22,474 nucleotides of DNA from a virus, in IMG/VR virus record IMGVR_UViG_3300008110_007268, positions 1-22,474 of that record; one strand, written 5' to 3'. A model generated the notes under the pieces. That model was not told where the DNA came from, searched no databases, and worked only from the letters and a program-made list of their open reading frames with translations. Positions 1,952-21,485 of this stretch are shown one piece after another; position 1 is the first letter of the stretch; each line of letters begins with the position of its first letter. Made by a program: the position numbers and the translations under genes.

Positions 1952-2289
1952 AGAATATTAAAAGAGTTATTGACGGTGATACTGTAGAACTTGAAGTTGA
2001 TTTAGGATTTCATTTAACTCTTTGCGATAAAGTTCGTTTGGCGGGGGTTGATACTCCAGAAACAAGAACTACAAATCCAGAAGAAAAAGAAAGAGGTCTC
2101 AAATCCAAAGCATGGATGCAAGACCGTTTAAGTAATATTGAAGGTAAAGAGTTAATCGTAAAATTCGTAAAAGAAGAAAAATACGGAAGATTATTGGGTT
2201 GGTTGTATTTTGTTGGAGAACCCAATACTCTTAACGAACAATTAATTAATGAAGGATTAGCAGAACCTTATATGACAGATCAACTTTGA
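1933..2289 (+). CDS. Staphylococcal-nuclease-like (thermonuclease) protein
   Basis: This is a 118-aa single-domain SNase, a Ca2+-dependent phosphodiesterase that cuts DNA or RNA. The DGDT motif (residues 14-17) and VRLAGVDTPE (34-43) hold the expected Arg35, Asp40, Thr41 and Glu43, and Arg86 in EKYGRLLGW matches the second catalytic arginine. No signal peptide is visible, so it acts in the cytoplasm, plausibly in host DNA breakdown or DNA processing. The ATG at 1933 is preferred over an in-frame TTG at 1912 because GGAG at 1922-1925 sits 7 nt before it. Its stop overlaps the stop of the convergent minus-strand gene by 10 bp. Family assignment is secure; the biological target is unknown. Confidence 0.9.
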   Translation: MYEYKVKNIKRVIDGDTVELEVDLGFHLTLCDKVRLAGVDTPETRTTNPEEKERGLKSKAWMQDRLSNIEGKELIVKFVKEEKYGRLLGWLYFVGEPNTLNEQLINEGLAEPYMTDQL

Positions 2290-7078: not shown

Positions 7079-7110
7079 ATATTAAAAAGTAATCTGTTTT
7101 ATGTAGTCAA

Positions 7111-7138
7111 TAAAAAACCACCCCAAGAAGAGGTGGTT
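7111..7138 (-). terminator. Intrinsic terminator downstream of the porin gene
   Basis: On the minus strand AACCACC (7138-7132) and GGTGGTT (7122-7116) form a 7-bp stem with a 9-nt loop, followed by a T-rich tract (TTTTTA, 7117-7112). It lies 24 bp after the porin stop and ends the porin transcript before the epimerase gene. Confidence 0.85.
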
Positions 7139-7161
7139 CCACTCAAATTATGAGTGATTTA

Positions 7162-8643
7162 TCAGAACGTGAACTTGGTCTGGATTACACCACCCCACTT
7201 GCTGCTGTCCTGATAACGTTGATTGTTTTCAACATAGAACAGAGCAGGAGTGATGCTGATGTTGTCGGTAACTTGGAACTTGTAGAAGAACTCAAGCATC
7301 GTAGCATCAGATACACCAGCGGTTTCAGCAGAAGGTGCTTGTCCAACAGCAACACCAGCAGTGTTGCCAGCAACAAACGCATCTGCCCACTGAAGACCAA
7401 CGAACCAGGAATCCGAATCAGTTGCATCGGTAGCACCAGTAGTACCATTTACGAAGTTATATCCGTAACCAGCACTGATGGAGGGAACCCAACCAGATTC
7501 AGAAGGCTGCCAATATGCGTTAAGAGCAATGGCATTGGACTCTTGACCATCTACAAGAGCACCAGAGGCACCCAGGAGACCGTTGTAGGTGCGAGGACGG
7601 GTGCCCTCAGAACCGTAACGATAACCAGCACCAACACCCCAGTTAGATCCTTTGTAACCGAGTTGGGCAATGAAGTTCAGAGCACCTTCGGAATCAAAGA
7701 CACCAGTGGAACTATCTTCACCATTCTCGGCAACATAGTTCAGACCAGCAACGAATCCACCTTTGCCGACATACTGAGCACCAACACCAGCACCAGTTGC
7801 CTTGTTATAGACACCAGGAGCACCAGCAACTTGGAAGAAGTCAAGGATTTCCGACTTATAAGCAGAAGGAACCCATGCCATCTCAGTGTTACGAACCTTA
7901 GGACCGGCAGTAATAGTCACACTATCACCCACAGGGAACTGATAGTAGAGACGATCAAGAACAACATTGTCTCCAGTCAGAGCAGTAGTGTTGTCTGCCT
8001 TGTCCAGTTTGAACAGGGAAGAAGAAGAACCGAAAGGATCACTGCTGAAGTTAGCAGAACGCAGACGAGTGCGAAGAAGATCACGACCAGTGAACGAGGT
8101 GTCAAAGTTCAGACGGACATCATAATTAAATGCGGTGTTGCCAACGTTTCCACCAGCATTAGTTTCAAGTCCAGGAACTCCACCCAGAACAAAGGTTGCT
8201 TCACCCTTCAGTTTGGTAGTGGTAGAGAACTGAGTTGCCTCAAGAACACCAACCTTTGCTTCCAAACCATCTACACGACCACGGAGAACAATCAGTTCTT
8301 CTTTGAATTCTGCCTGAAGTTTACGAAGCTCATCGGTGACTTCAGTTACACGATCAAGGCAAGCATTCAGCAGTGCTGCTGCTTCGTAACGAGTCATTGC
8401 CTTACCACCACCGTAGGTGCCGTTAGGATAACCTGCTACGCAACCATAACGCTCAATAAGATTAGTGAGTGCTTGATATGCCCAGTCGGTAGGTTGAACA
8501 TCAGAGAATTGAGTAACGCTCGTTACCTGTTCAACAGAAGAGTACTTGCTGACATCCTCAATATTGAGTTCTGCGGCAGTAGCAGCAGGAGCAACAAGAC
8601 CCAAAGCAACAGGGACAAGCATCAGTTGTTTGAGAAAATTCAT
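7162..8643 (-). CDS. Cyanobacterial-type outer-membrane porin with SLH domain (Som/iron-uptake porin family)
   Basis: The 493-aa protein begins with a signal peptide (MNFLKQLMLVPVALGLVAP, probable cleavage in the following ATAA region). Next comes an S-layer-homology domain at ~45-97 (FSDVQPTDWAYQALTNLI ... AMTRYEAAALLNACLD), which binds peptidoglycan. Then come a short coiled coil (~98-135, with Glu/Lys/Leu heptads) and a long barrel region with alternating aromatic/Gly strands. It ends in phenylalanine (QTKFTF), the usual outer-membrane assembly signal. This is the architecture of the major cyanobacterial porins. It has its own composite promoter, leader hairpin and terminator, and is visibly richer in G+C than the neighbouring glycan genes, suggesting transfer from a host. 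The frame is intact and full length. Confidence 0.92.
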   Translation of the reverse strand: MNFLKQLMLVPVALGLVAPAATAAELNIEDVSKYSSVEQVTSVTQFSDVQPTDWAYQALTNLIERYGCVAGYPNGTYGGGKAMTRYEAAALLNACLDRVTEVTDELRKLQAEFKEELIVLRGRVDGLEAKVGVLEATQFSTTTKLKGEATFVLGGVPGLETNAGGNVGNTAFNYDVRLNFDTSFTGRDLLRTRLRSANFSSDPFGSSSSLFKLDKADNTTALTGDNVVLDRLYYQFPVGDSVTITAGPKVRNTEMAWVPSAYKSEILDFFQVAGAPGVYNKATGAGVGAQYVGKGGFVAGLNYVAENGEDSSTGVFDSEGALNFIAQLGYKGSNWGVGAGYRYGSEGTRPRTYNGLLGASGALVDGQESNAIALNAYWQPSESGWVPSISAGYGYNFVNGTTGATDATDSDSWFVGLQWADAFVAGNTAGVAVGQAPSAETAGVSDATMLEFFYKFQVTDNISITPALFYVENNQRYQDSSKWGGVIQTKFTF

Positions 8644-8675
8644 AATCGATTAGAAAATAATTTACTAAAGAAAAA

Positions 8676-8704
8676 CGAGTTAAGTTTTGTTACGACTCAA
8701 CTCG
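8676..8704 (-). promoter_or_regulatory. Stem-loop at the 5' end of the porin mRNA
   Basis: On the minus strand CGAGTTGAG (8704-8696) pairs with CTTAACTCG (8684-8676), a 9-bp stem with one G-U pair and an 11-nt loop. The predicted transcription start is about 8706, so this hairpin would cap the very 5' end of the message. That is a position that often protects against 5'-dependent decay. A protein or small-RNA binding site is also possible. Confidence 0.6.
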
Positions 8705-8707
8705 ATG

Positions 8708-8741
8708 TATTTATACTACACGACCTTTTTCAAGTTGTCAA
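8708..8741 (-). promoter_or_regulatory. Composite sigma70/late promoter of the porin gene
   Basis: TTGACA (8741-8736), 17 nt, then TAGTAT (8718-8713) on the minus strand, with the late box TATAAATA (8715-8708) overlapping the -10 by three bases. The downstream bases CATCGA nearly repeat those at the psbA promoter (CATCAA). The geometry is identical to that at 472-505, so the porin could be made both early and late. Confidence 0.8.
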
Positions 8742-8757
8742 GGGGGTACGGAAATAC

Positions 8758-9558
8758 CTACTTTTTATCCCTTTTACCACCAGAAGGTTCAGAGACTCTG
8801 CCAAGAAATGGATCATACATGGTTATCTGATCTATCGTCATCGAAACTCCCGCTTGATCCCAAAATTCTCTAAGACCCGTATAAGAATTTTTATGGAAAA
8901 TATCAACATGTTCCGGATGAATTGAAGATCCCAAAGAAATTTTATAAAGCAATAAAGGACAAGAGTAAGTGCATCCAGAATTATAAATTAAATCGTCAGC
9001 TACTGGTCTTGGTTTTACTCCGTTATCGATTTTATATTTTTCACCCCTAACATGCATTGATATAAGTTTTTTTGCATGATGTCTAGTGATCACATAACAT
9101 GCTGTAGAAAAATTGTTTACAAATCTGTTATGTATCGGAACATGAATATCTCCAGTTGAAATTATTGCCAACTGCATAACATCCCATGCATATGGACATC
9201 TACCGATAAAATCTTTCCAAGTAAAATTCCAACATTTCACTGTACTCAAATCACAATCATCTTCCATGATAATTGCATATTGAGAATCTGAATTGTTATA
9301 CCAATAATTAATAGCCTTCAGATGAGATGTAAGACATCCCACTTCACCTGAAGTTACAAGATCTGGATATTTTCCCTTAATAATTTGACTCAGATCATCA
9401 TTTCTCCCGTCATAAGCAGAAATCCGAGTATAATTTTCAATTTCCCAGTATTTAAACTGGTCTTCCATATACTCTTTTCTTTCTGGTTGATCGTCCAAAT
9501 TTATATAATATATCGGACCAAAATCTTTTAATTTATAAGCAGATTTATTCTTATCCAT
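8758..9558 (-). CDS. Glycosyltransferase family 25 (LPS biosynthesis type)
   Basis: This 266-aa GT25-type transferase has the family opening YYINLDDQPERKEYM (residues ~17-31), then GEVGCLTSHLKAI, the acidic nucleotide/metal-binding segment YAIIMEDDCDL, and a second acidic patch VADDLIYNSG. GT25 enzymes add galactose or glucose to LPS cores or collagen-like acceptors from UDP-sugars; the donor here is unknown. It is cytoplasmic, and complete for the bacterial family. The start codon overlaps the stop of the HAD gene by 1 nt, tying it to the glycan operon. It is the last gene of that operon before the porin promoter region. Confidence 0.88.
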   Translation of the reverse strand: MDKNKSAYKLKDFGPIYYINLDDQPERKEYMEDQFKYWEIENYTRISAYDGRNDDLSQIIKGKYPDLVTSGEVGCLTSHLKAINYWYNNSDSQYAIIMEDDCDLSTVKCWNFTWKDFIGRCPYAWDVMQLAIISTGDIHVPIHNRFVNNFSTACYVITRHHAKKLISMHVRGEKYKIDNGVKPRPVADDLIYNSGCTYSCPLLLYKISLGSSIHPEHVDIFHKNSYTGLREFWDQAGVSMTIDQITMYDPFLGRVSEPSGGKRDKK

Positions 9559-9884
9559 TAGTTAAAAAAATCAATGTCTTTCAAAGCTTTATCATCTATG
9601 TATACATCTCCAGCAGGTTTTCCCATGTATAATTCATGGAATTTGCACCCCCAAGATACTAATTGTTTAAAGGTAACATCATACCACCTTTCATATGACA
9701 TTCTATAAGATCCCGAATAAGTTCCCATGCCCCTGGCAGTAAGAAATATTATTCGATTTCCGTCGTCATATAATTTATTAATTTTTTCAATTCGATTTAA
9801 AAAAGGTTCGGATTCTTCGTACTTGCCAATTTCTTTTTGTGAGCAAATAGTCCCATCAATATCAATTACATAAACTTTATTCAT
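9558..9884 (-). CDS. Small HAD-superfamily phosphatase
   Basis: This 108-aa protein has the four HAD motifs: DIDGTI near the N-terminus (nucleophile and acid/base Asp), LTARG (motif II Thr), a Lys in GKPAGD (motif III) and DVYIDDKA (motif IV Asp pair). There is no cap domain, so it is a minimal HAD. Related small HADs occur in capsule and LPS loci and dephosphorylate sugar phosphates. ATG at 9884 was taken as start; a TTG at 9899 would add five residues and overlap the upstream stop. It could supply the Kdo-8-phosphate phosphatase step missing beside kdsA and kdsB, but it is much shorter than usual KdsC. Confidence 0.8.
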   Translation of the reverse strand: MNKVYVIDIDGTICSQKEIGKYEESEPFLNRIEKINKLYDDGNRIIFLTARGMGTYSGSYRMSYERWYDVTFKQLVSWGCKFHELYMGKPAGDVYIDDKALKDIDFFN

Positions 9885-9895
9885 ACAAAAAAATA

Positions 9896-10486
9896 TCAAG
9901 GTACATACGCAAGTGTATTGCCATTTTTACAACTTTTTAGTTTGTATCCCAATCCCAATTCATCAAACCATTTTATTGTTGGAATTTGATCGTTCTGCTT
10001 TGTTTCAAAATAAACGGCAGGTCTATATTTTTTGATTGTTTCAATTGCACCCTTACAAACATTTAATTCGTATCCCTCGGTGTCAATTTTAATCAAATCA
10101 ACGTCATCCAAATCAAATGAATCTAAAGTTTTGCAAGGAACATTTTCAATTGCATATTCATTCTGACCTTCCCCCCATGTTCCATTTTTAGTGAACCTAC
10201 TAATACTGGCGTGTTCAGGTTTGTGTATTCCATTTGGCAGTACTAAAGTTACCGTTTTTTCTTCATCACCAAGAGCAATATTATATTTTTCAATTCCATC
10301 TGGCAAATGAGAAAATACATTTGGATTAGGCTCAAATGAAATTACTCTTTTAAAATCTTCTAAAAATGGATATGAAGTTTCTCCATAGCAAGCACCTACA
10401 TCAATATAAACATCAAATTTTTTGACGTGCGGAAAAACTTCTATTCTAATTCTTTTTCCAAATGCAGAATTTGTTAAATCATTCAT
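9896..10486 (-). CDS. FkbM-family SAM-dependent methyltransferase
   Basis: This 196-aa O-methyltransferase of the FkbM type has the SAM-binding motif YIDVGACYGETSYPF (residues ~27-41), then VISFEPNPNVF (acidic residue binding the ribose), CKTLDSF, and the family block DLIKIDTEGYELNVCKGA. FkbM proteins methylate hydroxyls of sugars or polyketides and are frequent in phage and cyanobacterial surface-polysaccharide clusters. It has no membrane segment. It is separated by 2 nt from the cupin gene upstream and lies 11 nt before the HAD start. Terminal sugar methylation could mask a glycan from recognition; the substrate is unknown. Confidence 0.92.
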   Translation of the reverse strand: MNDLTNSAFGKRIRIEVFPHVKKFDVYIDVGACYGETSYPFLEDFKRVISFEPNPNVFSHLPDGIEKYNIALGDEEKTVTLVLPNGIHKPEHASISRFTKNGTWGEGQNEYAIENVPCKTLDSFDLDDVDLIKIDTEGYELNVCKGAIETIKKYRPAVYFETKQNDQIPTIKWFDELGLGYKLKSCKNGNTLAYVP

Positions 10487-10488
10487 AA

Positions 10489-10845
10489 TTAATTCAATTC
10501 ACTTTTATTAAATCCAGAATATTCCCTTTCAATATCATTGTGATTAAATTCTGCCCAATAAAGTTCAAAAGCTAATCCATCTTCAAGAGCTTCAAATTGA
10601 TGATAATATCCTGGTTCTACAGCATTAAACTCACCAGGACCAAGAATAGTTTCATCGACCAAATCCTGACAATGCCTCCAATTCCTAATAAGCAATTTAC
10701 CAGAGACCACATAAAAACCATTCCATTTGAATTTGTGTTTATGCTTGGAACAAACTCCTCCTGCTTTAAAATCAATTCTATGGAATTCTAATGCATGATT
10801 TGCACAAATCAGTTCAGTTTTTCCCCAAATTTTTCCTTGTTTCAT
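10489..10845 (-). CDS. Single-domain cupin protein
   Basis: This 118-aa cupin carries motif 1 as KHKHKFKWNGFYVVSGKLLI (His residues and the G of the first metal-binding block). Motif 2 is GPGEFNAVEPGYYHQFEA, ending in the conserved His. The fold resembles the C-terminal mannose-6-phosphate isomerase/sugar-phosphate isomerase type cupin, so a role on mannose or another sugar of this cluster is plausible, including supplying mannose-6-P for GDP-mannose. That is inference. It is coupled to the upstream gene through an ATGA overlap. Confidence 0.85.
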   Translation of the reverse strand: MKQGKIWGKTELICANHALEFHRIDFKAGGVCSKHKHKFKWNGFYVVSGKLLIRNWRHCQDLVDETILGPGEFNAVEPGYYHQFEALEDGLAFELYWAEFNHNDIEREYSGFNKSELN

Positions 10846-11801
10846 GTCGTTAAAATCTTACAAATATCGTTAGTAGCGTTTATTTTCTTTAAACTTTTTT
10901 CATTGAGAACATCAACATTTCCATTATAATCTACAAATAATTGGTAGTCAAGTTGATTTAGAATACAATCAATAAAACAACTGGAAGGATACGTGACATA
11001 ATGTTGATCACACATGGAAAATAATTGATGTCTTTTAATATTATTATTTTTCAACCAATCATTATCAATAAGAAATTTATTTTTTCTTTTTAGTATGTTG
11101 ACAATCATTGAGTGTATTTTTTCATTTGCTCCAGGATGCCTAACGAAATAGCAAGGTTCATCAGTATCACATATCCTATTAATTTGATCTAAAGTTTCAT
11201 CTTTCCATTTTTTTGTGTATATCCCACTCCAAAAAGAATTTTTATTGACATCCAATTTTATGTCCTGATCATCAATGGCATCAAAACATCTACCAAAAAA
11301 GAAAATTTTACTATTTTCTATTTTAGTTGTAGAAGTATATTCATGATCCGGTACACCAACAGAAATAAATTTACTTGCAGATTTTGCATTTTTAATTACA
11401 TGTTCATCATTTACCCAGGTTAAAACATGATCTGCAGAATAAGAAATTTCTGGTATCCTGGTTATTCCTTCTTGAGAAAGTCCATGCTGGATTGCAAATG
11501 TCTTGCATTTTGATATTTTACAAGCCTCATATTCAATTTTATGGTAGATTGAACTACTTCCAGTAGTTACAAGAAACGATTCGGATTCTTTCGTCAAATC
11601 CGGTATGTCATTGTAATACGAATTAATGTCTAAAGCATCTACTTCTAAATCTCCAAATATTTCACATAAATCATCTTGAAATATTTCGTTTGCATTGGTA
11701 AGGAGTATAGTTTCATAATTCATTTGTTGGAGAGTTCTAACTATCGGAATTATAAACCTCAAATGATTTCTAGAAGTATTACATATAATAATTCTTTTCA
11801 T
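10842..11801 (-). CDS. Probable GT-B-like glycosyltransferase or surface-carbohydrate protein
   Basis: This 319-aa protein starts with a Rossmann-like strand and helix (MKRIIICNTSRNHLRFIIP). It contains FAIQHGLSQEGI, resembling the His-Gly block of capsule-type and CDP-glycerol-type transferases with a GT-B fold. Further on, PCYFVRHPGANEK and YPSSCFIDCILN sit where the C-terminal donor-binding domain would be. No transmembrane helix is visible. It overlaps both neighbours by 4 nt. Assignment as a transferase rests on these partial motifs and on context; donor and acceptor are unknown. Confidence 0.6.
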   Translation of the reverse strand: MKRIIICNTSRNHLRFIIPIVRTLQQMNYETILLTNANEIFQDDLCEIFGDLEVDALDINSYYNDIPDLTKESESFLVTTGSSSIYHKIEYEACKISKCKTFAIQHGLSQEGITRIPEISYSADHVLTWVNDEHVIKNAKSASKFISVGVPDHEYTSTTKIENSKIFFFGRCFDAIDDQDIKLDVNKNSFWSGIYTKKWKDETLDQINRICDTDEPCYFVRHPGANEKIHSMIVNILKRKNKFLIDNDWLKNNNIKRHQLFSMCDQHYVTYPSSCFIDCILNQLDYQLFVDYNGNVDVLNEKSLKKINATNDICKILTT

Positions 11802-12718
11802 AGTAATCCCAAATTATTAGATACAACACCAGTCTCAAATTCCTCTCTACTATATTGAGAAAAAGCTAAAGAGTTTAACCATTTCATTCTAATTTCATCA
11901 TCCGGATAATATGGTGTTTCGATCAAAGAATAATCGGATTGAGATACTGGAGATGTTGGTGAATTTACATCGGAAAATGTTGGTATTCCCATTAACTGTG
12001 CATGAATGGCAGCAGCAGATGAATGCGTGACTAAAGCCCAACAATCCTCCAAATCTTGTTCCAATGTAACTCCTGTAGATTGGGATTTGTTTGATAATTG
12101 ATTAGATTTGTCAGGTTTCTCACGAATGACAATTTCCCTATCTGTATTTTTTTTCAAAGTTTCCAATGTCTCCTCAGCCCAGTTTTCTTGACCATAAATT
12201 GACAAAACATGTTTTGAAGATCTACAAAAAATTATTTTTGACCCTCTTTTTTTATACTCCTTTCCATAACCATTAAAATGATCATAAAAATATTTTTTCC
12301 ATCTTGAGTCATCTACGTCTAAAATTTTACTCAATACATGAGAATTTTTAGAAATTCTGTACCATTCTTGGGAATGGGGATTGTTATTTCCAGTATGCCT
12401 GGCATACCCCCTCCAAAAATATCCATGATCAATGTAAAAATAATCCAGACCCAATTTTCTTCGATATTTAATAAAGTCATGCGTTGGTCTTCCAATAACC
12501 ATATCGCAAAGAATTACCTCAGAATCATCATAAATTCCATAAGAACTTGAATTCATATCAGTATTCCAAAGAACTTCGGATGGAATACAATTCTTATGTA
12601 AATTTTCTATGGTGACATCAATCAAATGATTAAATTCAGCCCCAACTCTAACTGGATATTTTCCAGGTGATATTTTCCCAAATTTTGCTTTGCTAAAGAT
12701 ACCATAATATTTTTTCAT
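11798..12718 (-). CDS. Probable capsule-type glycosyltransferase (GT-B-like)
   Basis: The 306-aa protein has a C-terminal segment, CWALVTHSSAAAIHAQLMG followed by IPTF, characteristic of the donor-sugar-binding half of KpsC/KpsS-like and related GT-B transferases. It is preceded by REIVIREKPDKSN, where a donor-phosphate-binding Lys/Arg is expected. The N-terminal half (FYIDHGYFWRGY) may bind the acceptor. KpsC/S enzymes use CMP-Kdo, which would fit kdsA and kdsB in the same cluster, but the similarity seen here is too short to assert that. Its start lies 4 nt after the stop of the upstream paralogue gene. Confidence 0.6.
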   Translation of the reverse strand: MKKYYGIFSKAKFGKISPGKYPVRVGAEFNHLIDVTIENLHKNCIPSEVLWNTDMNSSSYGIYDDSEVILCDMVIGRPTHDFIKYRRKLGLDYFYIDHGYFWRGYARHTGNNNPHSQEWYRISKNSHVLSKILDVDDSRWKKYFYDHFNGYGKEYKKRGSKIIFCRSSKHVLSIYGQENWAEETLETLKKNTDREIVIREKPDKSNQLSNKSQSTGVTLEQDLEDCWALVTHSSAAAIHAQLMGIPTFSDVNSPTSPVSQSDYSLIETPYYPDDEIRMKWLNSLAFSQYSREEFETGVVSNNLGLL

Positions 12719-12722
12719 ACTA

Positions 12723-13460
12723 CTACCTCATATTGGGATTTAACCACTCAGGACTATTCAAATAATGCTTTCTATCTCCCTTTCGGTGATCAATGTAAGG
12801 ACTCAATACCGGACAATATGGCATTGTATGAGATTTTCCATTTCCATATGTTTTTTCAGTTCTTGTCGGAAATGCTTTTAAAGTAGAATCAAAAGCAATG
12901 CAATCATGATATCCATCTTCAAGATCAAATAAAGTATCTTCAGCATATAGAGAAATATATCTGTCAAAGAACTCTTGAACTATTTCGTTTTCCACATTGA
13001 ATCCAATAAATCCCGTTTCCGTATATTTTTTTCTTGGATAGTATGCAAAGTCGCAATCGGAAATAAAGGATTCATACCAGTCTAACGGTATCTGTTTAAT
13101 AAAAACACAATCAAAATCGACATAGAACATTTTTTTTCCTATGTTTTTTGCTGCATGTTGTGCGTGAACTTTATATGAAAACTTCAGTGCATCATCATCA
13201 TTGATAGTATGTTTTCTTGGTTCTGGGGGAGATTTTCTACTTTTAAATCTCTGAACAAATTCAATCAAGTTTGATGATTCATTGTAAAGGTTTAGATATG
13301 TTATATTTTTATTTTGAGGATATATGCTAAAATCGTCCTCTTCAACATAGCAAAACAGTGGTATCAGCTGATCCGTTTTTATAAAAGTTTCAAGAAACCT
13401 ACTTCCATACTCTTTGTATATTTTTTTATTGAACGTTGTTACAAAATAACTATCAATCAT
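12723..13460 (-). CDS. GT-A-like glycosyltransferase, paralogue A
   Basis: This 245-aa protein has a DxD-type motif in FYVDFDCVFIKQIPLDW (residues ~112-128), expected to bind the metal and nucleotide sugar in GT-A folds. An N-terminal block YVEEDDFSIYPQNKNITYLNL and a C-terminal CPVLSPYIDHRKGDRK block follow the same order as in the next gene upstream, with which it shares the full length. The family is common in cyanophages but I cannot name it more precisely. The pair clearly arose by tandem duplication and has diverged substantially. It has no membrane segment. Confidence 0.75.
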   Translation of the reverse strand: MIDSYFVTTFNKKIYKEYGSRFLETFIKTDQLIPLFCYVEEDDFSIYPQNKNITYLNLYNESSNLIEFVQRFKSRKSPPEPRKHTINDDDALKFSYKVHAQHAAKNIGKKMFYVDFDCVFIKQIPLDWYESFISDCDFAYYPRKKYTETGFIGFNVENEIVQEFFDRYISLYAEDTLFDLEDGYHDCIAFDSTLKAFPTRTEKTYGNGKSHTMPYCPVLSPYIDHRKGDRKHYLNSPEWLNPNMR

Positions 13461-13466
13461 TTTAAA

Positions 13467-14192
13467 TTACACCCCAATCAATTCAGGACTTTTGGACATT
13501 TTTTTTCTATTCCCTTTTTTATGGTCAATGTATGGACTCAGAATAGGACATCTTGCCATTACATGTCTATGATATTTTAAATCTAACTTATCATTTTCAC
13601 CATGCAACTTTTCTGTTCTATTTGGAAAAAATCTAAGAACAACATCAAATACAACAGAATCATTCTGGGTTCGGACAGTATAAACTTTATCCGTGTTATA
13701 CATTTCAATAAAAGCATCAAAAAATTTTTGAACCGTTTCACTTTCGCAATTATACATCACAAATCCAGTTTCTGAATAATAATCCTGCCTCGGATAATAT
13801 GCAAAATCTTTATCTTCGATAAATTCATCAAACCATTTCAAAGGAATGCTTTCACGAAAAACGCAATCAGCATCTATAAAAACTTGCCTTTTCCCAAGAT
13901 TTCTTCCAGCATATTGAGCATATACTTTGTAGCAAAATCTTATAGCATCATATCTATACCCAGGAACTGGTCTATTTTTGTTCCTACTAATGAATTTTAA
14001 TATTTCCGGAGTTTCTTTGAACAAGTTAAAATAAGTTATATTTTTATGTTGTGGATAGATACTAAAATCATCTTCCTCCACATAACAAACCAATGGAACT
14101 TGTTGTTCTGTATTTAAATAACTTTCTATGAATTTATTAGCGTATTCATCAAACAACTCTTTATTAAATGTAGTCAAGAAAAATGTATCCAT
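13467..14192 (-). CDS. GT-A-like glycosyltransferase, paralogue B
   Basis: This 241-aa paralogue of the following gene has DxD as VFIDADCVFRESIPLKW, the shared N-terminal block CYVEEDDFSIYPQHKNITY and the shared C-terminal block CPILSPYIDHKKGNRK. Compared with paralogue A, the variable parts are residues ~70-90 and ~170-200, where acceptor specificity could lie. Both copies are intact, so two related linkages may be made. The start at 14192 is preceded by a GGTG-type weak ribosome-binding site. Confidence 0.75.
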   Translation of the reverse strand: MDTFFLTTFNKELFDEYANKFIESYLNTEQQVPLVCYVEEDDFSIYPQHKNITYFNLFKETPEILKFISRNKNRPVPGYRYDAIRFCYKVYAQYAGRNLGKRQVFIDADCVFRESIPLKWFDEFIEDKDFAYYPRQDYYSETGFVMYNCESETVQKFFDAFIEMYNTDKVYTVRTQNDSVVFDVVLRFFPNRTEKLHGENDKLDLKYHRHVMARCPILSPYIDHKKGNRKKMSKSPELIGV

Positions 14193-14211: not shown

Positions 14212-14219
14212 TATTTATT
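14212..14219 (-). promoter_or_regulatory. Possible late promoter (AATAAATA)
   Basis: AATAAATA on the minus strand matches the cyanophage NATAAATA late motif 20 nt upstream of paralogue B and overlaps the end of the GT29-like gene. It is an isolated match in very AT-rich sequence, so it may be chance. Confidence 0.3.
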
Positions 14220-14808
14220 GATAAAGATTCCATCCACGTTCTTTAATCATTCTATTAACAAAATATTCCTCAGATTCAAAATCATGAGGTGACTCAATTC
14301 TATTAACAAAAAGATCTTGTCTTGGAATTTGAGTCTTTGTTTTTTGAAAGTCAAATCCAAATATTTTCAAATTACAATCTATTTTTTTGTAAAGTAAATA
14401 TATTATCACAAACCCCTGAGATGGCATTTTTTTCATCTGAGGTTTATGATCCTCCCATACATCCTTCCAATTAAAAAGATCTCCCTTTATTAAACAAGAT
14501 TCAATTTCATTTTTGCTGTTTCCGCCCTGCAAAACATAATAAAAAAATTTATTTAATTTCAAATAATCGGGCAAAACTTTATCACCAACAAATCTATTAT
14601 TCATCCAAACCACATTAGTCTTTATTCCTTGACTTGTATAATGTATTGGATACCCTCGATTGATTCTCATAACAACATCAGAAGAATCTATGTCTTTTCC
14701 ATATTCTCTGTCTAATAAACTCTGAGCATTTCCAACTAAAGATATTGTTTTTCCTTTCAAATAATCGAATAATTCATAAGCGTCTTCGTGCGTTATTACT
14801 CGTTTCAT
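14215..14808 (-). CDS. GT29 sialyltransferase-like protein
   Basis: This 197-aa protein carries blocks in the order of GT29 sialylmotifs. A motif-L-like segment at ~21-54 (ISLVGNAQSLLDREYGKDID then SSDVVMRINRGYP) matches the VGN...Y-G-x-x-ID-x-x-D-x-V-x-R-x-N pattern. A motif-S-like segment at ~129-154 (PSQGFVIIYLLY ... IFGFDF) and a motif-VS-like PHDFESEEYF (His175, Glu178/180) complete the set. GT29 enzymes take the sugar from a CMP donor, so with kdsB nearby CMP-Kdo is a possible donor. It is short for the family and lacks the eukaryotic membrane anchor. It is divergently placed from the plus-strand island, 35 bp away. Confidence 0.72.
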   Translation of the reverse strand: MKRVITHEDAYELFDYLKGKTISLVGNAQSLLDREYGKDIDSSDVVMRINRGYPIHYTSQGIKTNVVWMNNRFVGDKVLPDYLKLNKFFYYVLQGGNSKNEIESCLIKGDLFNWKDVWEDHKPQMKKMPSQGFVIIYLLYKKIDCNLKIFGFDFQKTKTQIPRQDLFVNRIESPHDFESEEYFVNRMIKERGWNLYQ

Positions 14809-14843: not shown

Positions 14844-15524
14844 ATGATTCCGATATACATTGGGTACGACCCAAGAGAAAGAGCTGCTACTTTATTGTTG
14901 ATAGACTCACTTCACAAATATTCTACCACACCTTTGTCGATAACACTAATCCGAAGAGAGCAACTGAAGGGAATTTTAACTCGACCAAGGGGACCATTAG
15001 ATGCAACAGATTTTTCAATATCCAGATTTTTGACACCATATCTATCCGATTATACTGGATGGTCAATATTCATGGACTGCGATATGTTGTTTAAAGATGA
15101 CATAACGACTTTGTGGGACATGAGAGATTCGACTTATGATGTAATGGTAGTAAAACATCAATACATCCCAAAATCTGAACAAAAATTTGACAGTGAGAAG
15201 CAAACAAAGTATGGGATGAAAAATTGGTAATCTTTAATGATGTTCAATAACTCAAAATGCAAATCACTTTCTTTGGATTATGTAAACAATTCTCCCGGAT
15301 TAGATTTACATCAATTCAAATGGACATCATCTATTGGTGAATTGCCAGTCAGATGGAACTGGTTGGCAGATGAATATGAATACAATGAAGATGTTTCAAA
15401 TATTCACTATACATTAGGCGGTCCATGGTTCCATGATGGAATTGGATCAAACATCAAATCAGACTACGAACAAACTTGGATAGAATATCATGAAGAATGC
15501 ACTAGTTATACCAGTAAGAATTGA
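14844..15524 (+). pseudogene. Glycosyltransferase gene interrupted by a single in-frame TAA
   Basis: Two same-frame ORFs, 14844-15230 (128 aa) and 15237-15524 (95 aa), are halves of one transferase. The first opens IPIYIGYDPRERAA and holds the DxD motif FMDCDMLFKDDI. The second continues MMFNNSKCKSLSLDYVN, then SPGLDLHQFKW, LPVRWNWLADEYEY and HYTLGGPWF, all blocks of one recurrent cyanobacterial/cyanophage transferase family. Only one codon separates the readable parts: TGG TAA TCT TTA ATG ATG, where related proteins (from memory) read Trp-Ser-Ser-x-Met, so TCA to TAA would explain it. No length change is present. Options are a recent loss, a sequencing error, stop read-through, or reinitiation at 15237. 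The end overlaps kdsB by 35 nt. Confidence 0.82.
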
Positions 15525-16194
15525 TAGTTCCAGACTTCCAAGAAAGGCATTATTAGAGATAGAAGGAAAAACACTAATCCAAAGAGTAGTAGATCAGTGT
15601 AAAAAAACAAATCTTCCCACATATGTGGTTACAGATAGTGAAGAAATAGAGCAATCTTTAGATCCCACAAATATAAAAATAATCCTTCAAAAAAAATCAG
15701 CAGAAAGTGGGACGGAAAGAATATCAAACGCCATTCAAAATATAGAAGGTGATTATATTATCAATGTTCAGGGAGACCAACCTTTTATTGAACCAGAATC
15801 AATCATTGAAATGAATGATTTCATAATCAAAAATTCACATCATATGGTTGTCACTCCAATAAAATTATTTTCCGAGAAATATGAAGATCCATCAAAATGC
15901 AAAGTAATTACAGATTTATTTGGTAGAGCAATTTATTTCAGCAGAAGTCCGATTCCATATAATGCAAAAGAGTCTTATGGGCACCTTGGAGTTTATGGAT
16001 ATCAAAGAAAAGTTTTAGAAAATTATAAAAAATTAAAAACTTCCCCACTTGAAAAAGTGGAGAAGTTGGAGCAATTGAGATTTATTGATAATGGAATACC
16101 TATTCAAACATACAAAACAAATTATTCAATCTTCTCTATTGACACTCAAGTAGACTTGATAGATGCTATTGAATATGCGAGAAAATTGATCTAA
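15490..16194 (+). CDS. kdsB: CMP-Kdo synthetase (3-deoxy-manno-octulosonate cytidylyltransferase)
   Basis: The enzyme transfers CMP from CTP to Kdo, giving CMP-Kdo, the donor for Kdo transferases. Over 234 aa the family blocks appear in order: IPVRIDSSRLPRKAL (nucleotide-binding Arg and Lys), VVTDSEEI, SGTERISNAI, INVQGDQPFIEP (metal-binding Asp), YFSRSPIPYN, GHLGVYGYQRKVL and LEKVEKLEQLRFIDNGIPI. All key residues seem intact; the length is slightly below the usual ~250. The ATG at 15490 lies inside the end of the interrupted transferase gene. Its final 69 bp are also the antisense end of kdsA. It is cytoplasmic. Confidence 0.95.
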   Translation: MKNALVIPVRIDSSRLPRKALLEIEGKTLIQRVVDQCKKTNLPTYVVTDSEEIEQSLDPTNIKIILQKKSAESGTERISNAIQNIEGDYIINVQGDQPFIEPESIIEMNDFIIKNSHHMVVTPIKLFSEKYEDPSKCKVITDLFGRAIYFSRSPIPYNAKESYGHLGVYGYQRKVLENYKKLKTSPLEKVEKLEQLRFIDNGIPIQTYKTNYSIFSIDTQVDLIDAIEYARKLI

Positions 16195-16893
16195 TGGTAT
16201 TTGACATTCTTTGTCAGAAAGAGCTTCTGGTGGGTTTGGATGCACTTCCATAAAGAGTGCATCAGCACCCCAGATCATTGCTGATTTGGCTAAAGGTTCA
16301 ACATATTGCCTTTCTCCACCAGTTGTCTCTCCACAACCACCGGGAAGTTGAGTGGAATGAGTGGCATCAAAGCAAACCTTACCGTATTGTTTCATGATTG
16401 GTATTGATCTAAAATCAACTACCAAATTATTATATCCAAATGAGGTTCCTCTTTCACAAAGATAAAAATCAGAACAACCGAAATCTTTTAATTTTTGTGC
16501 AATATTTTTAGTATCATTGGGGGCAAGAAATTGCCCCTTTTTTACGTTCACTAATAAACCAGATTCCGCAGCTGCACGAAGAAGAGGAGTTTGTCTACAA
16601 AGAAATGCAGGTATTTGGAGAGCATCGACATATGGTGAAATTTCATCTACCTGCCAAGTTTCATGGACATCCGTAATAATTTTAAACCCATCTTTCCTCA
16701 TTGAAGAAAAAACTTCTTTTGCATAATCTATTCCATGCCCAATAAAGCTATTTGAGCTGGATCTATTTTCTTTGGCAAAAGAAGTCTTGAAATAATAGTC
16801 AATTTCTTTGGGTATATTGCTACGAATTTCGTTTGCGACTTCATAACAAATTTCTATGCTTTCAAGAGAGCATGGACCGGCAAATAATTTCAT
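16126..16893 (-). CDS. kdsA: Kdo-8-phosphate synthase
   Basis: The enzyme condenses phosphoenolpyruvate with arabinose-5-phosphate to Kdo-8-phosphate. The 255-aa sequence has the family blocks YYFKTSFAKENRSSSNSF, ITDVHETWQ, LQIPAFLCRQTPLL, VNVKKGQFLAP, CERGTSFGYNNLVVDFRS, CFDATHSTQLPGG and FMEVHPNPPEALSD. The N-terminus FAGPCSLES has Cys8 where metal-dependent (Aquifex-type) enzymes have a ligand and the E. coli enzyme has Asn. With the His of DATHS, the Glu of MEVHP and the Asp of ALSD, this indicates the metal-dependent class. It overlaps the GT2 gene by ATGA and kdsB by 69 bp tail to tail. Confidence 0.96.
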   Translation of the reverse strand: MKLFAGPCSLESIEICYEVANEIRSNIPKEIDYYFKTSFAKENRSSSNSFIGHGIDYAKEVFSSMRKDGFKIITDVHETWQVDEISPYVDALQIPAFLCRQTPLLRAAAESGLLVNVKKGQFLAPNDTKNIAQKLKDFGCSDFYLCERGTSFGYNNLVVDFRSIPIMKQYGKVCFDATHSTQLPGGCGETTGGERQYVEPLAKSAMIWGADALFMEVHPNPPEALSDKECQIPLDQFSRIFNSIYQVYLSVNRED

Positions 16894-17615
16894 GCTAAAA
16901 CTCCCATGTGCTTATCTTTGCAATATTCCAACTCCTGATTAAATTTCTTATCATAATCAGATCCATTGGAATATAAAGACGATATCTGCTGATTATGTAT
17001 CCTATTTGTAACTAAATCGTCTTCCAAGTAAATAGGATCGCCGTAAGTCATCTTCATCCTATAATACATTTCACAATCCATCATCATTGTCAGAGATTCA
17101 TCGAATCTTTCAGAAACTTTAGTTCTCTTGAATGCCATACCAGAAGGAGATCCAATTGTATTAACTCCATTTAAAATATTATCATTCCACTCTGGCATCA
17201 AATTCCAATAGAAAGTATTTCCATCATCATTGGTATGATTAGATCCGCACAGCAACCACTCACTATCACTTTCAACTAAGGAATTATAAATTTTTTCAAG
17301 TGCTTCATCATCATAAAAGAAATCATCTTGGAACATAATTTTTACAATTTCTCCAGTGCATAGATCAATTGCAGTATTTGTATTTGCTGGACCATTTCCT
17401 CTATTAATTTCATTTCGGATATGACGTATGTTCATTCCCTTATCATGATAATAATTAACTAAAACTTTAATTTCGTTATCCTTACTATGGTCAGATACGA
17501 TAACTTCATAATCGGTTAAAGTTTGTATTTCAATAGTTCTAAGAAGATCATCAAGAAATTCTTGTCCTCTCCCATAAGATTCCCAAGTGGGAATTGCAAT
17601 CGAAATTTTTGTCAT
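16890..17615 (-). CDS. Glycosyltransferase family 2
   Basis: This 241-aa GT-A transferase opens KISIAIPTWESYGRGQEFLD, a standard GT2 first strand and loop. EVIVSDHSKDNEI and RNEINRGNGPANTNTAI follow, then the DxD equivalent IVKIMFQDDFFYDD. The catalytic-base region DCEMYYRMKMTYGDPIYLED resembles the ED/xRW-type end of the domain. No C-terminal transmembrane helices are seen, so it is soluble or peripheral. The ATG at 17615 is preferred over a TTG at 17627 because it forms an ATGA overlap with the fucosyltransferase stop and has GGA about 8 nt upstream. Donor sugar is unknown. Confidence 0.88.
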   Translation of the reverse strand: MTKISIAIPTWESYGRGQEFLDDLLRTIEIQTLTDYEVIVSDHSKDNEIKVLVNYYHDKGMNIRHIRNEINRGNGPANTNTAIDLCTGEIVKIMFQDDFFYDDEALEKIYNSLVESDSEWLLCGSNHTNDDGNTFYWNLMPEWNDNILNGVNTIGSPSGMAFKRTKVSERFDESLTMMMDCEMYYRMKMTYGDPIYLEDDLVTNRIHNQQISSLYSNGSDYDKKFNQELEYCKDKHMGVLA

Positions 17616-18400
17616 AATTTTTTCCAATCCTTTAAATATAAATCTTTTGTATTATGATCTTTACAATCACCAGAAAACCATGCTTTGGGTGCTATAACGT
17701 TTTTACTATCTGCTAACCAAGCACCCCACCAACTAAACGTACTATTACAAATAATATGATGAGAACAAAGGCTTAGTAAGCAAAGATCGATATATGCATC
17801 ATTAGTTTCGGAAACCATGAATCTATCAGACTCAAATATTTTTTGCTGTATACACCACTCTGGATCATCGGAGAATACCATAACAGTAAGATGATCATCA
17901 AACTCACTTAATGCCTTTTCATAATAAGAATTTGGTTGAACTGGATGATTTGGGTTTGTAAGAAAGTCATTTCTCCTAATATGTATTCCTATTACTTGAT
18001 CATATTCACTCATAACCTCTTTACAAGTATTCAAGATATCATCTTTAAATGTAAAGTCCGTTCTCAATTCACTTTCAATATTCTTAAAGTATTTTTCACT
18101 TTGAAAGAATCCGACATAATTAACATCATGTTCTGGAGGATTTTCAAATAGTTCATCATCAAAATGAAAAAATCTTTCGGTAACAGATGGAAATTCTGTC
18201 ATTGATCGATTGCACTTAATATCAAAACATTCATCAATATTACTAAAAAGTTTTTGATAATAATATTTTCCAAATACACTTTTTGGAGGAATATAAAATG
18301 ACCTGGAATGCTTAATGGACATCGACTTCACAAATGCATATTGAAACATTTGATTTCCAAGATGCCCATTATTGCCAAGATGATTGATTGAAAATGTCAT
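17612..18400 (-). CDS. GT11 alpha-1,2-fucosyltransferase-like protein
   Basis: This 262-aa family-11 transferase shows GHLGNQMFQYAF near the N-terminus (residues ~12-23), the GDP-binding HxRRxD motif as IGIHIRRNDF, VMVFSDDPEWC, and the C-terminal NSTFSWWGAWLA block, all diagnostic for the family. It transfers L-fucose from GDP-fucose, and some members are thought to use GDP-colitose, which matters here because a ColD-like gene is its immediate neighbour. It overlaps colD by ATGA and GT2 by ATGA. Length is near the family norm (~280-300), with no membrane anchor. Confidence 0.93.
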   Translation of the reverse strand: MTFSINHLGNNGHLGNQMFQYAFVKSMSIKHSRSFYIPPKSVFGKYYYQKLFSNIDECFDIKCNRSMTEFPSVTERFFHFDDELFENPPEHDVNYVGFFQSEKYFKNIESELRTDFTFKDDILNTCKEVMSEYDQVIGIHIRRNDFLTNPNHPVQPNSYYEKALSEFDDHLTVMVFSDDPEWCIQQKIFESDRFMVSETNDAYIDLCLLSLCSHHIICNSTFSWWGAWLADSKNVIAPKAWFSGDCKDHNTKDLYLKDWKKL

Positions 18401-19563
18401 AGTTTTCTCAAAATTTTATCTAAAAGATCAATCTCCTTTTCACCGATATATTGATTGTTTCCAAGATAAATTCCGCAATCATGAATTTTATCAACGTTAT
18501 GTTCGGTCTTATCTGATGTAATTGAATAGTGCCTCAAATAAGGTTGTTTTAAACAATTACCGGTAATTACTGGTCTATGTTCAACACCATACACATTACA
18601 AAGATCTTTAAATTGATTTTTTATTTGTTTATCATAAAAAATTAGTGGAAGACAGAAGCTACTAATTCCATCCGGAACTACAGGAACATGAACCTTCTCA
18701 CAATGATTTGAAAGTATTTTTACGAATTTCTTATAATTATCATTCCGTTTATCAATTATTTTATCAAGTCTTTTTAATTGAGATAATCCCAATACGGCAC
18801 ATAGTTCATGATTTCTAAAATTATACCCATCGGTAACAAAAAGAAACTGCCTATCTATATCTGGATATGTCTCATAATAAACATTTGACATATCAGATTC
18901 TCTAGCCATTCCATGACTTCTTTTCAATCTCATAATGTCATATACCGCAGAGTCATTAGTCGAAACCATTCCCCCCTCAATCGTTGACATGTGATGACCG
19001 AAGTAAAAACTAAAAGTTGATCCGAGACTATTAGATCCAACTTTAGATCCATCCGAATTTAAACATCCATGAGATTCGCAAACATCATCAATGAAGAAAG
19101 CACCTGGAAAAATTTCTTTGTATCTTTCAACTGGTGCAGGAAATCCCATTAAATGAGTCGTAAATACTGCTTTAATATCTGGATGTTGCTCAGAAATATA
19201 TCTAAGATTATCTTCATTAAAGGTAAAAGTATTGATGTCTATATCACAAAATATCGGTTGAAGTCCCAATTGGAAAACTGGATTTATATTCGTAACCCAA
19301 GTACAAGCCGATACAACTACTTTATCACCAGCCCTCAGTCCATAAACTTCCTTAATAGCAGAAAGTAATAGATAATTTGCAGTGCTTCCGGAAGAAACAT
19401 AAAGTGAGTACTCAGATCCTATCCAATTTGACCATGCAGCCTCAAATTGCTTAACCTTGGGACCATTGGTAAACCGGTCAGATGTCATGCAAAATTTGGC
19501 CATTTTGACTCTATCCATAAGAGTCATGTTATTGCTCATTAAAGGCCACTTAGACTCTTTCAT
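18397..19563 (-). CDS. colD: ColD-like PLP enzyme: GDP-4-keto-6-deoxymannose 3-dehydratase
   Basis: This 388-aa DegT/DnrJ/EryC1-fold protein is the length I recall for E. coli ColD. Ordinary sugar aminotransferases hold PLP on a Lys in an SFxxxKN motif. Here it reads TFSFYFGHHMSTIEGG, with His190 at the Lys position, the hallmark of 3-dehydratases (ColD and RfbH/E1). Other blocks fit ColD: YVSSGSTANYLLL, FIDDVCESHG (PLP-binding Asp), DGYNFRNHELCAV, VEHRPVITGNCLKQP and GIYLGNNQYI. The Cys set of an RfbH iron-sulfur cluster is not evident and the protein is shorter. ColD removes the 3-OH of the Gmd product using glutamate. gmd and fcl directly upstream supply the pathway. RfbH-like or aminotransferase activity is less likely. 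Confidence 0.85.
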   Translation of the reverse strand: MKESKWPLMSNNMTLMDRVKMAKFCMTSDRFTNGPKVKQFEAAWSNWIGSEYSLYVSSGSTANYLLLSAIKEVYGLRAGDKVVVSACTWVTNINPVFQLGLQPIFCDIDINTFTFNEDNLRYISEQHPDIKAVFTTHLMGFPAPVERYKEIFPGAFFIDDVCESHGCLNSDGSKVGSNSLGSTFSFYFGHHMSTIEGGMVSTNDSAVYDIMRLKRSHGMARESDMSNVYYETYPDIDRQFLFVTDGYNFRNHELCAVLGLSQLKRLDKIIDKRNDNYKKFVKILSNHCEKVHVPVVPDGISSFCLPLIFYDKQIKNQFKDLCNVYGVEHRPVITGNCLKQPYLRHYSITSDKTEHNVDKIHDCGIYLGNNQYIGEKEIDLLDKILRKL

Positions 19564-20494
19564 AATTGCTCCTATTATTCAAAAACCAATCAATAGTAAT
19601 TTTCAATCCATCCTCTAAAGAAGTTTTTGCATTCCATCCAAGAGAATCCATTTTACTTGTATCTAATGCTCTTCTTGGAGTTCCGTTTGGTTTAGAAGAA
19701 TCCCATACTACCTTTCCTTCATATCCAACAATTTTTGCAACCAACTCCGAAAGTTCTTTGATGCTCACTTCCCTTTGTGGTCCAATATTAATAATTTCCG
19801 GATCATCATAATTATTCATCAAGAAAATCAATCCATCAGCCAAATCATCCGAAAAAAGAAATTCCCGTGTTGGACTTCCATCACCGAAACAAACTACTTC
19901 AGGAAGATTATTTTCTTTTGCATTAATAAATTTATTAATAAAACTTGGTATTACATGACATTCGTTAATATTAAAATTATCAAATATTCCATACAAATTA
20001 TTGGGCATTACCGAAACGGTTGACATACCATACTGTTCTGTATATTTTTTGCACATCATATACCCGCTTATTTTTGCAATAGAATAAGCAATATTTGTTG
20101 GCTCTAAAATATCAGTCATTAAATACTCTTCCTTAATAGGAACTGGAGCATGTTTAGGGTAGATGCAAGCAGAACCTAAAAATAAAAGTTTTTTGACACC
20201 GAACAAATATGAAGAATGAATGATGTTACTTTGAATCATCAAATTTTCATAGATGAACTCTGCGGGATAATCTTTATTAAATCCTATTCCTCCGACTTTA
20301 GCAGCAGCAAGGAAAACATATTCCGGTTCTTCTGAGGAGAAGTATCGTTCAGTTTCTTCCTGATTGGTAAAGTCTAAATCATCCCGAGTTCCTTTGATGA
20401 TATTAGTAAATCCATCCTTTTCTAATCTTCTAACAATAGCCGATCCAACAAGTCCATTAGCACCAGCAACTAAAATCCTACTATCAAGTTTCAT
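19550..20494 (-). CDS. fcl: GDP-L-fucose synthase (or ColC-like epimerase/reductase)
   Basis: This 314-aa extended SDR enzyme performs 3,5-epimerisation and NADPH-dependent 4-reduction of GDP-4-keto-6-deoxymannose. Motifs: [10 protein letters not shown] (Rossmann), [33 protein letters not shown], the YxxxK in [36 protein letters not shown] and [17 protein letters not shown]. All are classic Fcl/WcaG. ColC, the colitose synthase, is a relative, so this gene could serve either or both routes. The ATG at 20494, overlapping the gmd stop, is preferred over a TTG at 20512. Its last 14 bp overlap colD. Confidence 0.93.
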
Positions 20495-21485
20495 TAATAC
20501 ACATTTCCTCAACTAATTGATTAAAAGAAATCTTAGGTTCCCAACCCAGTTTCTGTTTTGCCTTAGTGGCATCACCTAATAAGGTCTCTACTTCAGCAGG
20601 TCGGAAATATTTAGGGTCAACTACAACAACCAAATTTCCACTGTTAATATCGTATCCAACTTCATCAAGACCTTCACCTTCCCATCGAATATCCATTCCA
20701 AAGTAAGGTGCTGCCTTCTCTACAAACTCACGAACTGAATATTGTTTACCAGTGGCAATTACAAAATCATCTGGTTCATTTTGTTGAAGCATCAACCACA
20801 TTGCCTCGACATAATCCTTCGCATGTCCCCAGTCACGAAGAGCATTTAAATTTCCTAACTTGAGAACCGTTTGCCTGCCTTCAGAGATTGCTTTAAGACC
20901 TCTGGTAATCTTACGAGTAACAAATGTCTCACCACGGCGAGGAGATTCATGATTAAAAAGAATCCCCGTGCAAGCATACATTCCATATGCCTCACGATAG
21001 TTTTTAACAATCCAGTATCCATAAATCTTAGCAACTCCATAAGGACTTCTTGGATGAAAAGGAGTTGTTTCTGTCTGAGGAATCTCTTGAACTTTACCAT
21101 AAAGTTCTGAAGTAGATGCCTGATAAATGCGGACATCATTTTCCATCCCAAGAATACGAACTGCTTCAAGAATACGAAGAGTTCCAAGCGAATCAACTTG
21201 CCCAGTATATTCAGGTATTTCAAAAGATACCTTTACATGACTCTGGGCACCAAGATTATAGATCTCAGTAGGCTTAACTTTCTGAATTACCCTTATAAGA
21301 TTGGTAGAATCAGTAAGATCGCCGTAATGGAGATGAATAGAACTATAAATGTGGTCAATACGATGAGTGTTAATAAGGGATGCTCTCCGGATAATCCCAT
21401 GAACCTCATAACCTTTTTCAAGTAGTAGTTCAGCGAGATATGATCCATCTTGTCCCGTGATTCCGGTAATCAATGCTTTTTTCAT
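20484..21485 (-). CDS. gmd: GDP-mannose 4,6-dehydratase
   Basis: The enzyme converts GDP-D-mannose to GDP-4-keto-6-deoxymannose, the branch point for fucose, colitose, rhamnose and perosamine. The 333-aa protein shows [70 protein letters not shown] (Tyr-Lys pair), [17 protein letters not shown] and the C-terminal [18 protein letters not shown] block. It is first of the gmd-fcl-colD-GT11-GT2-kdsA series, all overlapping. It looks somewhat richer in G+C than fcl and colD, so it may have a different origin or expression demand. Its leader is AT-rich with no strong Shine-Dalgarno. Confidence 0.97.

Follow-up and report, generated by a model that had tools for sequence, protein, structure and literature searches.

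The GT29 glycosyltransferases are inverting enzymes that use CMP-sugar donors (PMC11288761; PMC5811610). The animal members are sialyltransferases that take CMP-sialic acid, are membrane anchored and disulfide linked (PMC5811610), and have PDB chains of 265–318 residues. Bacterial GT29 proteins without a membrane domain and without the L/S cysteine pair were described in 2018 (Sci Rep, PMC5811610), with no function predicted and no phage or Kdo link given in the portions cited here. Two putative precedents connect the family with Kdo. Arabidopsis RCKT1 (MGP2, At1g08660) is a GT29 proposed to use CMP-Kdo, and its loss removes the Kdo of RG-II, although that study does not demonstrate activity in vitro (PMC11288761). 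The GT29-GT107 protein of the E. coli K6 capsule has a bacterial GT29 domain tied to a putative Kdo homopolymer, an assignment made from predicted structure and mass spectrometry (PMC13171606). The Kdo genes kdsA and kdsB have already been reported in marine viruses as auxiliary metabolic genes (PMC10653327; PMC5332604), the cited parts of these papers making no mention of a GT29 partner, and in the titles and abstract starts of the open-licence PMC papers listed by our searches we found none joining a phage GT29 with Kdo.

The stretch of DNA analyzed here (the window) is the full 22,474-base virus record IMGVR_UViG_3300008110_007268, positions 1 to 22,474. One of its proteins shares with ST3Gal1, ST6Gal1, ST8SiaIII and ST6GalNAc2 the L, S and VS motifs and, in its predicted model, the fold (VIA Z 13–15), and with the bacterial GT29s the lack of a membrane domain and of the cysteine pair. 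It differs from RCKT1, a plant membrane protein with a pectin acceptor, and from the K6 protein, which is a GT107 fusion and belongs to a capsule rather than a phage. It is probably a soluble, short GT29 that takes CMP-Kdo as donor and adds Kdo to an acceptor glycan built by the phage's own glycosyltransferase cluster. The nearest DNA matches of the window are Synechococcus phages, and the window also encodes a phage lysozyme and a high-light-inducible-like protein; from these sequence features a cyanobacterial host is likely. Two other products are a SomB-type iron uptake porin (7162–8643; NF033921, 305 bits, cut-off 100), 68% identical to one in the cultured cyanophage S-SRM01 and an odd thing for a phage to make in that it is an outer-membrane porin, and a protein of 415 aa (2280–3527) in which EDPEDPEEPED repeats form a long tract.

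Motifs and predicted fold of the GT29 protein

Positions and supporting matches of the features discussed are collected in Table 1. An earlier note on this DNA had placed a GT29 enzyme at 14215–14808; the coordinates are correct, and the open reading frame there lies on the minus strand (ATG at 14808), the plus strand across the same interval being non-coding. The assignment to GT29 is borne out by Pfam PF00777 (40.9 bits, E 2.1e-10, against a curated cut-off of 23), by the predicted fold and by the motif residues. Five close viral relatives, 66–74% identical, occur in IMG/VR contigs (L002–L006), and the four that could be scanned whole score 43.6–48.1 bits with PF00777. The 5' part of the fifth (L006, 5150–5741) is out of frame, likely through sequencing error, because ambiguous residues occur elsewhere in that locus.

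Table 1. Features of the window, with coordinates, strand and supporting matches (bit scores with cut-offs where available).
Feature	Position	Strand	Support
GT25 glycosyltransferase	8758..9558	-	PF01755, 56.2 bits
Small HAD phosphatase-like protein	9558..9899	-	TIGR01689, 43 bits (below cut-off 162); kept in L220, L221
Two proteins, 306 and 319 aa	10842..12718	-	Weak DUF6716 match; no PDB relative by profile
FFLTTFNK-family protein adjoining GT29	13467..14192	-	Beside GT29 in window, L220, L221; no Pfam match
GT29 glycosyltransferase, soluble short form, 197 aa	14215..14808	-	PF00777, AF2 model, Foldseek/VIA
VS motif, H175...E180	14269..14286	-	59-row conservation; family profile aligns to ST3Gal1 VS His
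S sialylmotif, residues 129–154	14347..14424	-	Conserved PS.G and GFDF; family profile aligns to ST3Gal1
L sialylmotif, residues 20–64	14617..14751	-	Pfam stretch 23–71; conserved in 59 relatives
GT8-like gene (phrog_28018), one in-frame TAA at 15228–15230	14844..15524	+	Two ORFs match successive phrog_28018 parts
kdsB, CMP-Kdo synthetase	15490..16194	+	NF003952, 241.5 bits (cut-off 193); TIGR00466, 150.9 (cut-off 155.2)
kdsA, Kdo-8-phosphate synthase	16126..16893	-	NF003543, 314.5 bits (cut-off 242); TIGR01362, 303.3 (cut-off 314)
GT2 glycosyltransferase	16890..17627	-	PF00535, 53.2 bits
GT11-like (fucosyltransferase-type) protein	17612..18400	-	Similarity to annotated GT11 of S-SCSM2R; no NCBIfam match
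GDP-L-fucose synthase (Fcl)	19550..20512	-	NF047922, 412.1 bits (below cut-off 500)
GDP-mannose dehydratase (Gmd)	20484..21485	-	DNA match to annotated cyanophage gmd; present in L003, L005

The L, S and VS motifs follow one another along the chain in the order of the family, as had been proposed from the sequence. The L motif reads KTISLVGN...GKDIDSSDVVMRIN...GIKTN and the S motif PSQGF...IFGFDF. Dereplication at 90% reduced 89 rows to 59 non-redundant relatives (the profile did not pick up L025, L082 and L083); of these 59, 92% retain H175 and 88% retain E180. The search patterns came from the L and S motifs, so those columns are partly selected, and the VS columns are independent. The family profile aligns the VS His and Glu of the window protein with those of ST3Gal1, and H175 is likely the catalytic base. 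Motif III (1–4 residues, with a His in animal members) is not recognizable, there being no His at residues 155–174; in the gapped alignment of this stretch L002, L003 and L005 have a His and L004 does not. The L-motif Cys is absent from all five aligned cyanophage rows, which leaves no L/S disulfide pair of the animal type. The claim that a membrane anchor is lacking also holds: inspection of the sequence reveals no N-terminal hydrophobic stretch, and the predicted fold starts within the first 7 residues.

An AlphaFold2 model built on an alignment of 48 viral and bacterial relatives reached a pLDDT of 80.8 and a pTM of 0.83; an earlier model from only 5 close sequences (pLDDT 38) was set aside. 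With Foldseek, the best 30 matches in the PDB were all GT29 sialyltransferases (best E 8.9e-9), followed by GT42. VIA superposed the predicted model on ST8SiaIII with Z 15.3 (185 residues, 3.2 A) and on ST3Gal1 with Z 15.2 (172 residues, 2.5 A), in comparison to Z 10.4–12.6 for GT42 (CstI, CstII), and the sequence profile likewise favored ST3Gal1 (E 3.2e-20) over GT42 (E 1.7e-7). GT42 is a related fold that comes second to GT29 by Foldseek and VIA, both applied to the predicted model, and by the sequence profile. A fold unlike GT29 or the loss of CMP-site residues had been named as grounds for abandoning the assignment; the model is closest to GT29 and the motif residues are present. Chance or misread motifs are ruled out by the PF00777 score, the AlphaFold2 model, Foldseek and the profile match. 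Among the VIA matches listed, an HPPK-like protein (8sd5), SteA and thiamin pyrophosphokinase had middling Z values, which we took as shared architecture.

Kdo genes and the glycosyltransferase cluster

As the earlier note had observed, kdsB is the sugar-activating gene nearest to GT29, with one GT8-like gene between them. That note did not mention kdsA, which overlaps kdsB tail to tail; both proteins are complete in the window. Each passes one NCBIfam model (NF003543 for KdsA, NF003952 for KdsB) and falls just short of a stricter one, KdsA missing TIGR01362 by 11 bits and KdsB missing TIGR00466 by 4 bits. Both genes are also present in the two other cyanophage contigs of at least 17 kb with a window-type GT29 (L003/L220 and L005/L221). 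The L006 contig ends inside kdsA, and the contigs of L002 (4.1 kb) and L004 (5.8 kb) end within 200 bases of GT29. The direct neighbor of kdsB in the window, L220 and L221 is the GT8-like gene rather than GT29; this gene is uninterrupted in L220 and L221, and its TAA in the window could be real decay, an assembly error or recoding.

Further members of the cluster are less clear in function. The FFLTTFNK-family protein adjoining GT29 has a second copy at 12723–13460 and is probably a glycosyltransferase; the two proteins at 10842–12718 are possible GT-B glycosyltransferases; and our guess for the small HAD-like protein is a phosphatase of Kdo-8-phosphate or of another sugar. A GT2 gene lies directly upstream of GT29 in L002–L006.

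GT29, CMP-sugar synthetases and sugar synthases in viruses and bacteria

Searches with seven diverse query sequences found 81 GT29 loci in IMG/VR, of which 80 were kept. GT29 is common in viruses, and with these loci and the bacterial members in print (the cited part of PMC5811610) the idea of a family confined to animals has to be dropped. Twenty-one of the 80 records contain a match to the CMP-sugar synthetase model PF02348 at E up to 0.001, 19 of them above the cut-off. When only records of 15 kb or longer are considered, the synthetase was found in 19/48 with GT29 vs. 1/50 controls (Fisher p 1.9e-6), and in 18/39 after collapsing at 90% GT29 identity (p 2.8e-7); no control (0/50) had a synthetase above the cut-off. 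The controls were 50 of 79 GDP-fucose synthase loci without GT29, picked for lying on contigs of 15 kb or more, and GT29 was absent from all 50 records and all 79 loci. For 13 records of 40 kb or longer, the distance between GT29 and synthetase was much shorter than under random placement (combined p 6.6e-9). Enrichment and proximity together indicate that viral GT29 goes with CMP-sugars.

Where a sugar synthase could be identified, viral GT29 records fall into a sialic acid type, with NeuB, and a Kdo type, with KdsA; in the NeuB records, KdsA was sought within 10 kb on each side of GT29 and 1.5 kb on each side of the synthetase. We ran the NeuB model PF03102 on 42 of the 80 viral records, leaving out short ones, and on five bacterial genomes; NeuB was found in 12 of the 42, all 12 with a synthetase. 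A KdsB-like synthetase with adjacent KdsA occurs in 4/80 records (in addition to the window), none of the four with NeuB, and the five remaining synthetase-bearing records had neither NeuB nor KdsA. NCBIfam models confirm the KdsB of L097 and L098 and the KdsA of the record containing L098. The Kdo type comprises the window lineage (the window, L003, L005 and the L006 contig that ends inside kdsA) and two unrelated phage lineages, L052 and L055. L052 is a 429 kb phage, the same as LR756500 by sequence, with kdsA, kdsB, a kdsD-like gene and GT29; in L055 the kdsA/kdsB pair lies ~20 kb from GT29.

Several viral loci have unusual GT29 arrangements. Two neighboring GT29 genes are found in each of the phage loci L018, L021, L046 and L055, as in actinobacteria, perhaps for two successive linkages. 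GT29 is fused to a GT8 domain in L017 (9284–10528) and to a methyltransferase-like domain in L010 (9314–10555).

We also searched in the reverse direction, from the Kdo genes. GT29 lies within 10 kb of 4/80 viral kdsA loci, two of these being re-finds. This search also brought up L271 and L299 as two additional viral loci with kdsA and GT29, whereas 13/81 loci, S-SCSM2R among them, have both Kdo genes but no GT29. S-SCSM2R, a cultured cyanophage of Synechococcus WH7803, has an overlapping tail-to-tail kdsA/kdsB pair; a search of 30.8 kb of its sequence found no GT29, and the window GT29 had no tblastn match at E up to 0.01 in the whole record. The same overlapping arrangement recurs without GT29 in the cyanophage loci L249, L251 and L252–L255. 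The kdsAB pair is therefore its own mobile module in cyanophages, and its presence in S-SCSM2R and L252–L255 means that something else can use CMP-Kdo. Since kdsAB so often occurs without GT29, the neighborhood alone is weak evidence, and we rejected it as sole proof of a Kdo donor, most viral kdsA loci being without GT29. It seems that GT29 of the Kdo-linked branch depends on Kdo genes more than they depend on it.

In bacteria, a metagenome-assembled genome named as Cellulomonadaceae (L012; genome G083) has the run kdsB-kdsD-kdsA-kdsC-GT29-GT29 at 6949–11126, its frames abutting or overlapping, where kdsD encodes a KpsF/KdsD isomerase and kdsC a KdsC-type phosphatase. The same six genes are repeated in a second genome of this family (L247, 6470–10656, on a 1.76 Mb contig), and we found no report of such a run in the open-licence PMC literature searched. 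KdsA scored above its cut-off in only 1 of 28 actinomycete genomes, that of L012 (8 of the 28 were picked for having GT29, and G955 is outside the set); NeuB was found instead in 3 of the other 7 GT29-bearing actinomycete regions. GT29 is present in 9/398 Pseudomonadota genomes, and in these nine regions, within 10 kb of GT29, kdsA or kdsB occurred in 0/9 and NeuB in 1/9. Gram-negative bacteria carry their Kdo genes elsewhere in the genome, so these regions are uninformative on Kdo. A scan of genome contigs gave five loci, all non-cyanobacterial. Picocyanobacterial genomes carry annotations of kdsA and kdsB, which would weaken the idea of Kdo as foreign to the host.

The division between the two sugar synthases is largely reflected in the GT29 phylogeny. 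In a tree of 58 rows, one branch (support 95/90) holds 7 of 8 Kdo-linked and 0 of 12 NeuB-linked rows. The corresponding clade in a 77-row tree has 28 rows and a support of 94/96, slightly under the strict threshold. It contains 9 of 10 Kdo-linked rows and 1 of 16 NeuB-linked ones, a split with p 3e-5 uncorrected for relatedness; the truncated L045 was dropped from both trees. The exceptions are L008, a Kdo-linked row outside the clade in an unresolved fork, and L219, a partly aligned, NeuB-linked row inside it on a long branch. For 18 of the 28 rows, the sequence covered contains no donor gene. At 1.4 changes per column the stem of the window lineage is long, which makes the exact place of this lineage uncertain. 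A large viral clade of the LVGNSVEILN type (L022, L024, L029, L047, L059, L072 and relatives; 18 tree rows) has no CMP-sugar synthetase in its records, and these enzymes would have to draw their donor from the host.

Donor, acceptor and significance

Gene content and phylogeny both favor the suggestion, made in the earlier note, that CMP-Kdo rather than CMP-sialic acid could be the donor. That the window protein instead takes CMP-sialic acid or another CMP-nonulosonate from the host, with kdsA and kdsB serving something else, is in our view unlikely: all GT29 structures matched are sialyltransferases, and NeuB does accompany GT29 and a synthetase in the 12 viral records described above, but the NeuB-linked proteins fall in other clades (L219 excepted), no PF03102 match was obtained in G002 or G004, longer cyanophage records with a window-type GT29, and the sole one noted in the window is KdsA itself (15.5 bits, cut-off 22.1). 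We give a similarly low probability to GT29 being a bystander while another transferase of the cluster (the GT8-like protein or those at 10842–12718) or of the host uses the CMP-Kdo. Cyanophages such as S-SCSM2R and L251–L255, among others, manage kdsA/kdsB without GT29, and the GT8-like gene, nearest to kdsB in the window, L220 and L221, is 41–43% identical to one near kdsB in S-SCSM2R. GT8, GT2, GT11 and GT25, the other families assigned in the cluster, use UDP- or GDP-sugars, however, and GT29 takes CMP-sugars; the window copy of the GT8-like gene is interrupted; a WaaA-type (GT30, PF04413) Kdo transferase was found in 0/6 records (the window and five relatives), with a positive E. coli control; and profiles of the two 10842–12718 proteins gave nothing convincing in the PDB and no link to solved Kdo transferases, in what are weak tests.

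The scores of KdsA and KdsB just under their strictest cut-offs might suggest that both enzymes have drifted to a related substrate and that the donor is some other CMP-activated ulosonic acid, which we consider quite improbable given that each clearly passes another NCBIfam model of the same function. Least probable of all is that the GT29 gene is decaying or inactive like its interrupted GT8-like neighbor, as the 197-codon frame is kept in four relatives at 70–74% identity with its motif residues intact.

The analysis establishes the predicted GT29 fold with its motif residues, the presence of kdsA and kdsB, and the link of this GT29 branch to Kdo genes across the family. For the Kdo-transferring GT29 that we favor, it is from these comparisons that we infer which donor is used, that the reaction inverts, that H175 is catalytic and what the acceptor would be. 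KdsA would condense arabinose-5-phosphate with PEP to Kdo-8-phosphate, a phosphatase (from the host, or the small HAD protein) would release Kdo, and KdsB would convert it to CMP-beta-Kdo. With H175 as base, GT29 would then invert the linkage and place alpha-Kdo on its acceptor. The presence of Gmd, Fcl and the GT11-like gene points to a fucose-containing glycan, which may be one of the host surface that is probably altered during infection. CMP-Kdo has a half-life of ~34 minutes (PMC11288761), and with so short-lived a donor, synthesis on the spot would be sensible. The LPS of marine Synechococcus WH8102 and CC9311 has been reported to contain neither heptose nor Kdo (in the cited part of PMC4515613), and a Kdo-bearing product may therefore be a novelty there, or else part of another polysaccharide.

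We also put forward, much more tentatively and with some doubt, a wider reading: that a Kdo-using branch of GT29 in prokaryotes and phages decorates glycans other than lipid A, both in cyanophages, whose known host LPS is without Kdo, and in LPS-free Gram-positive actinobacteria; that the choice between Kdo and sialic acid follows the GT29 tree; and that the Kdo enzyme of plants and the sialic acid enzymes of animals may both be late derivatives of a more ancient transferase for CMP-ulosonic acids. If this is true, GT29 would be a family of CMP-ulosonic acid transferases rather than of sialyltransferases with odd exceptions, and the small soluble phage and actinobacterial enzymes would offer a tractable Kdo version of it. 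Such a version would be valuable, as the plant enzyme could not be expressed in E. coli and its proposed donor has the short half-life given above (PMC11288761). With a soluble enzyme of 197 aa whose gene lies near a kdsB of the same phage, the question of the donor can be put to a direct test. On the Kdo reading, the L012 and L247 loci suggest Kdo-containing glycans in some actinobacteria despite their lack of LPS, and the cyanophage would put on its host a sugar that the reported marine Synechococcus LPS lacks (cited part of PMC4515613), a plausible block to other phages.
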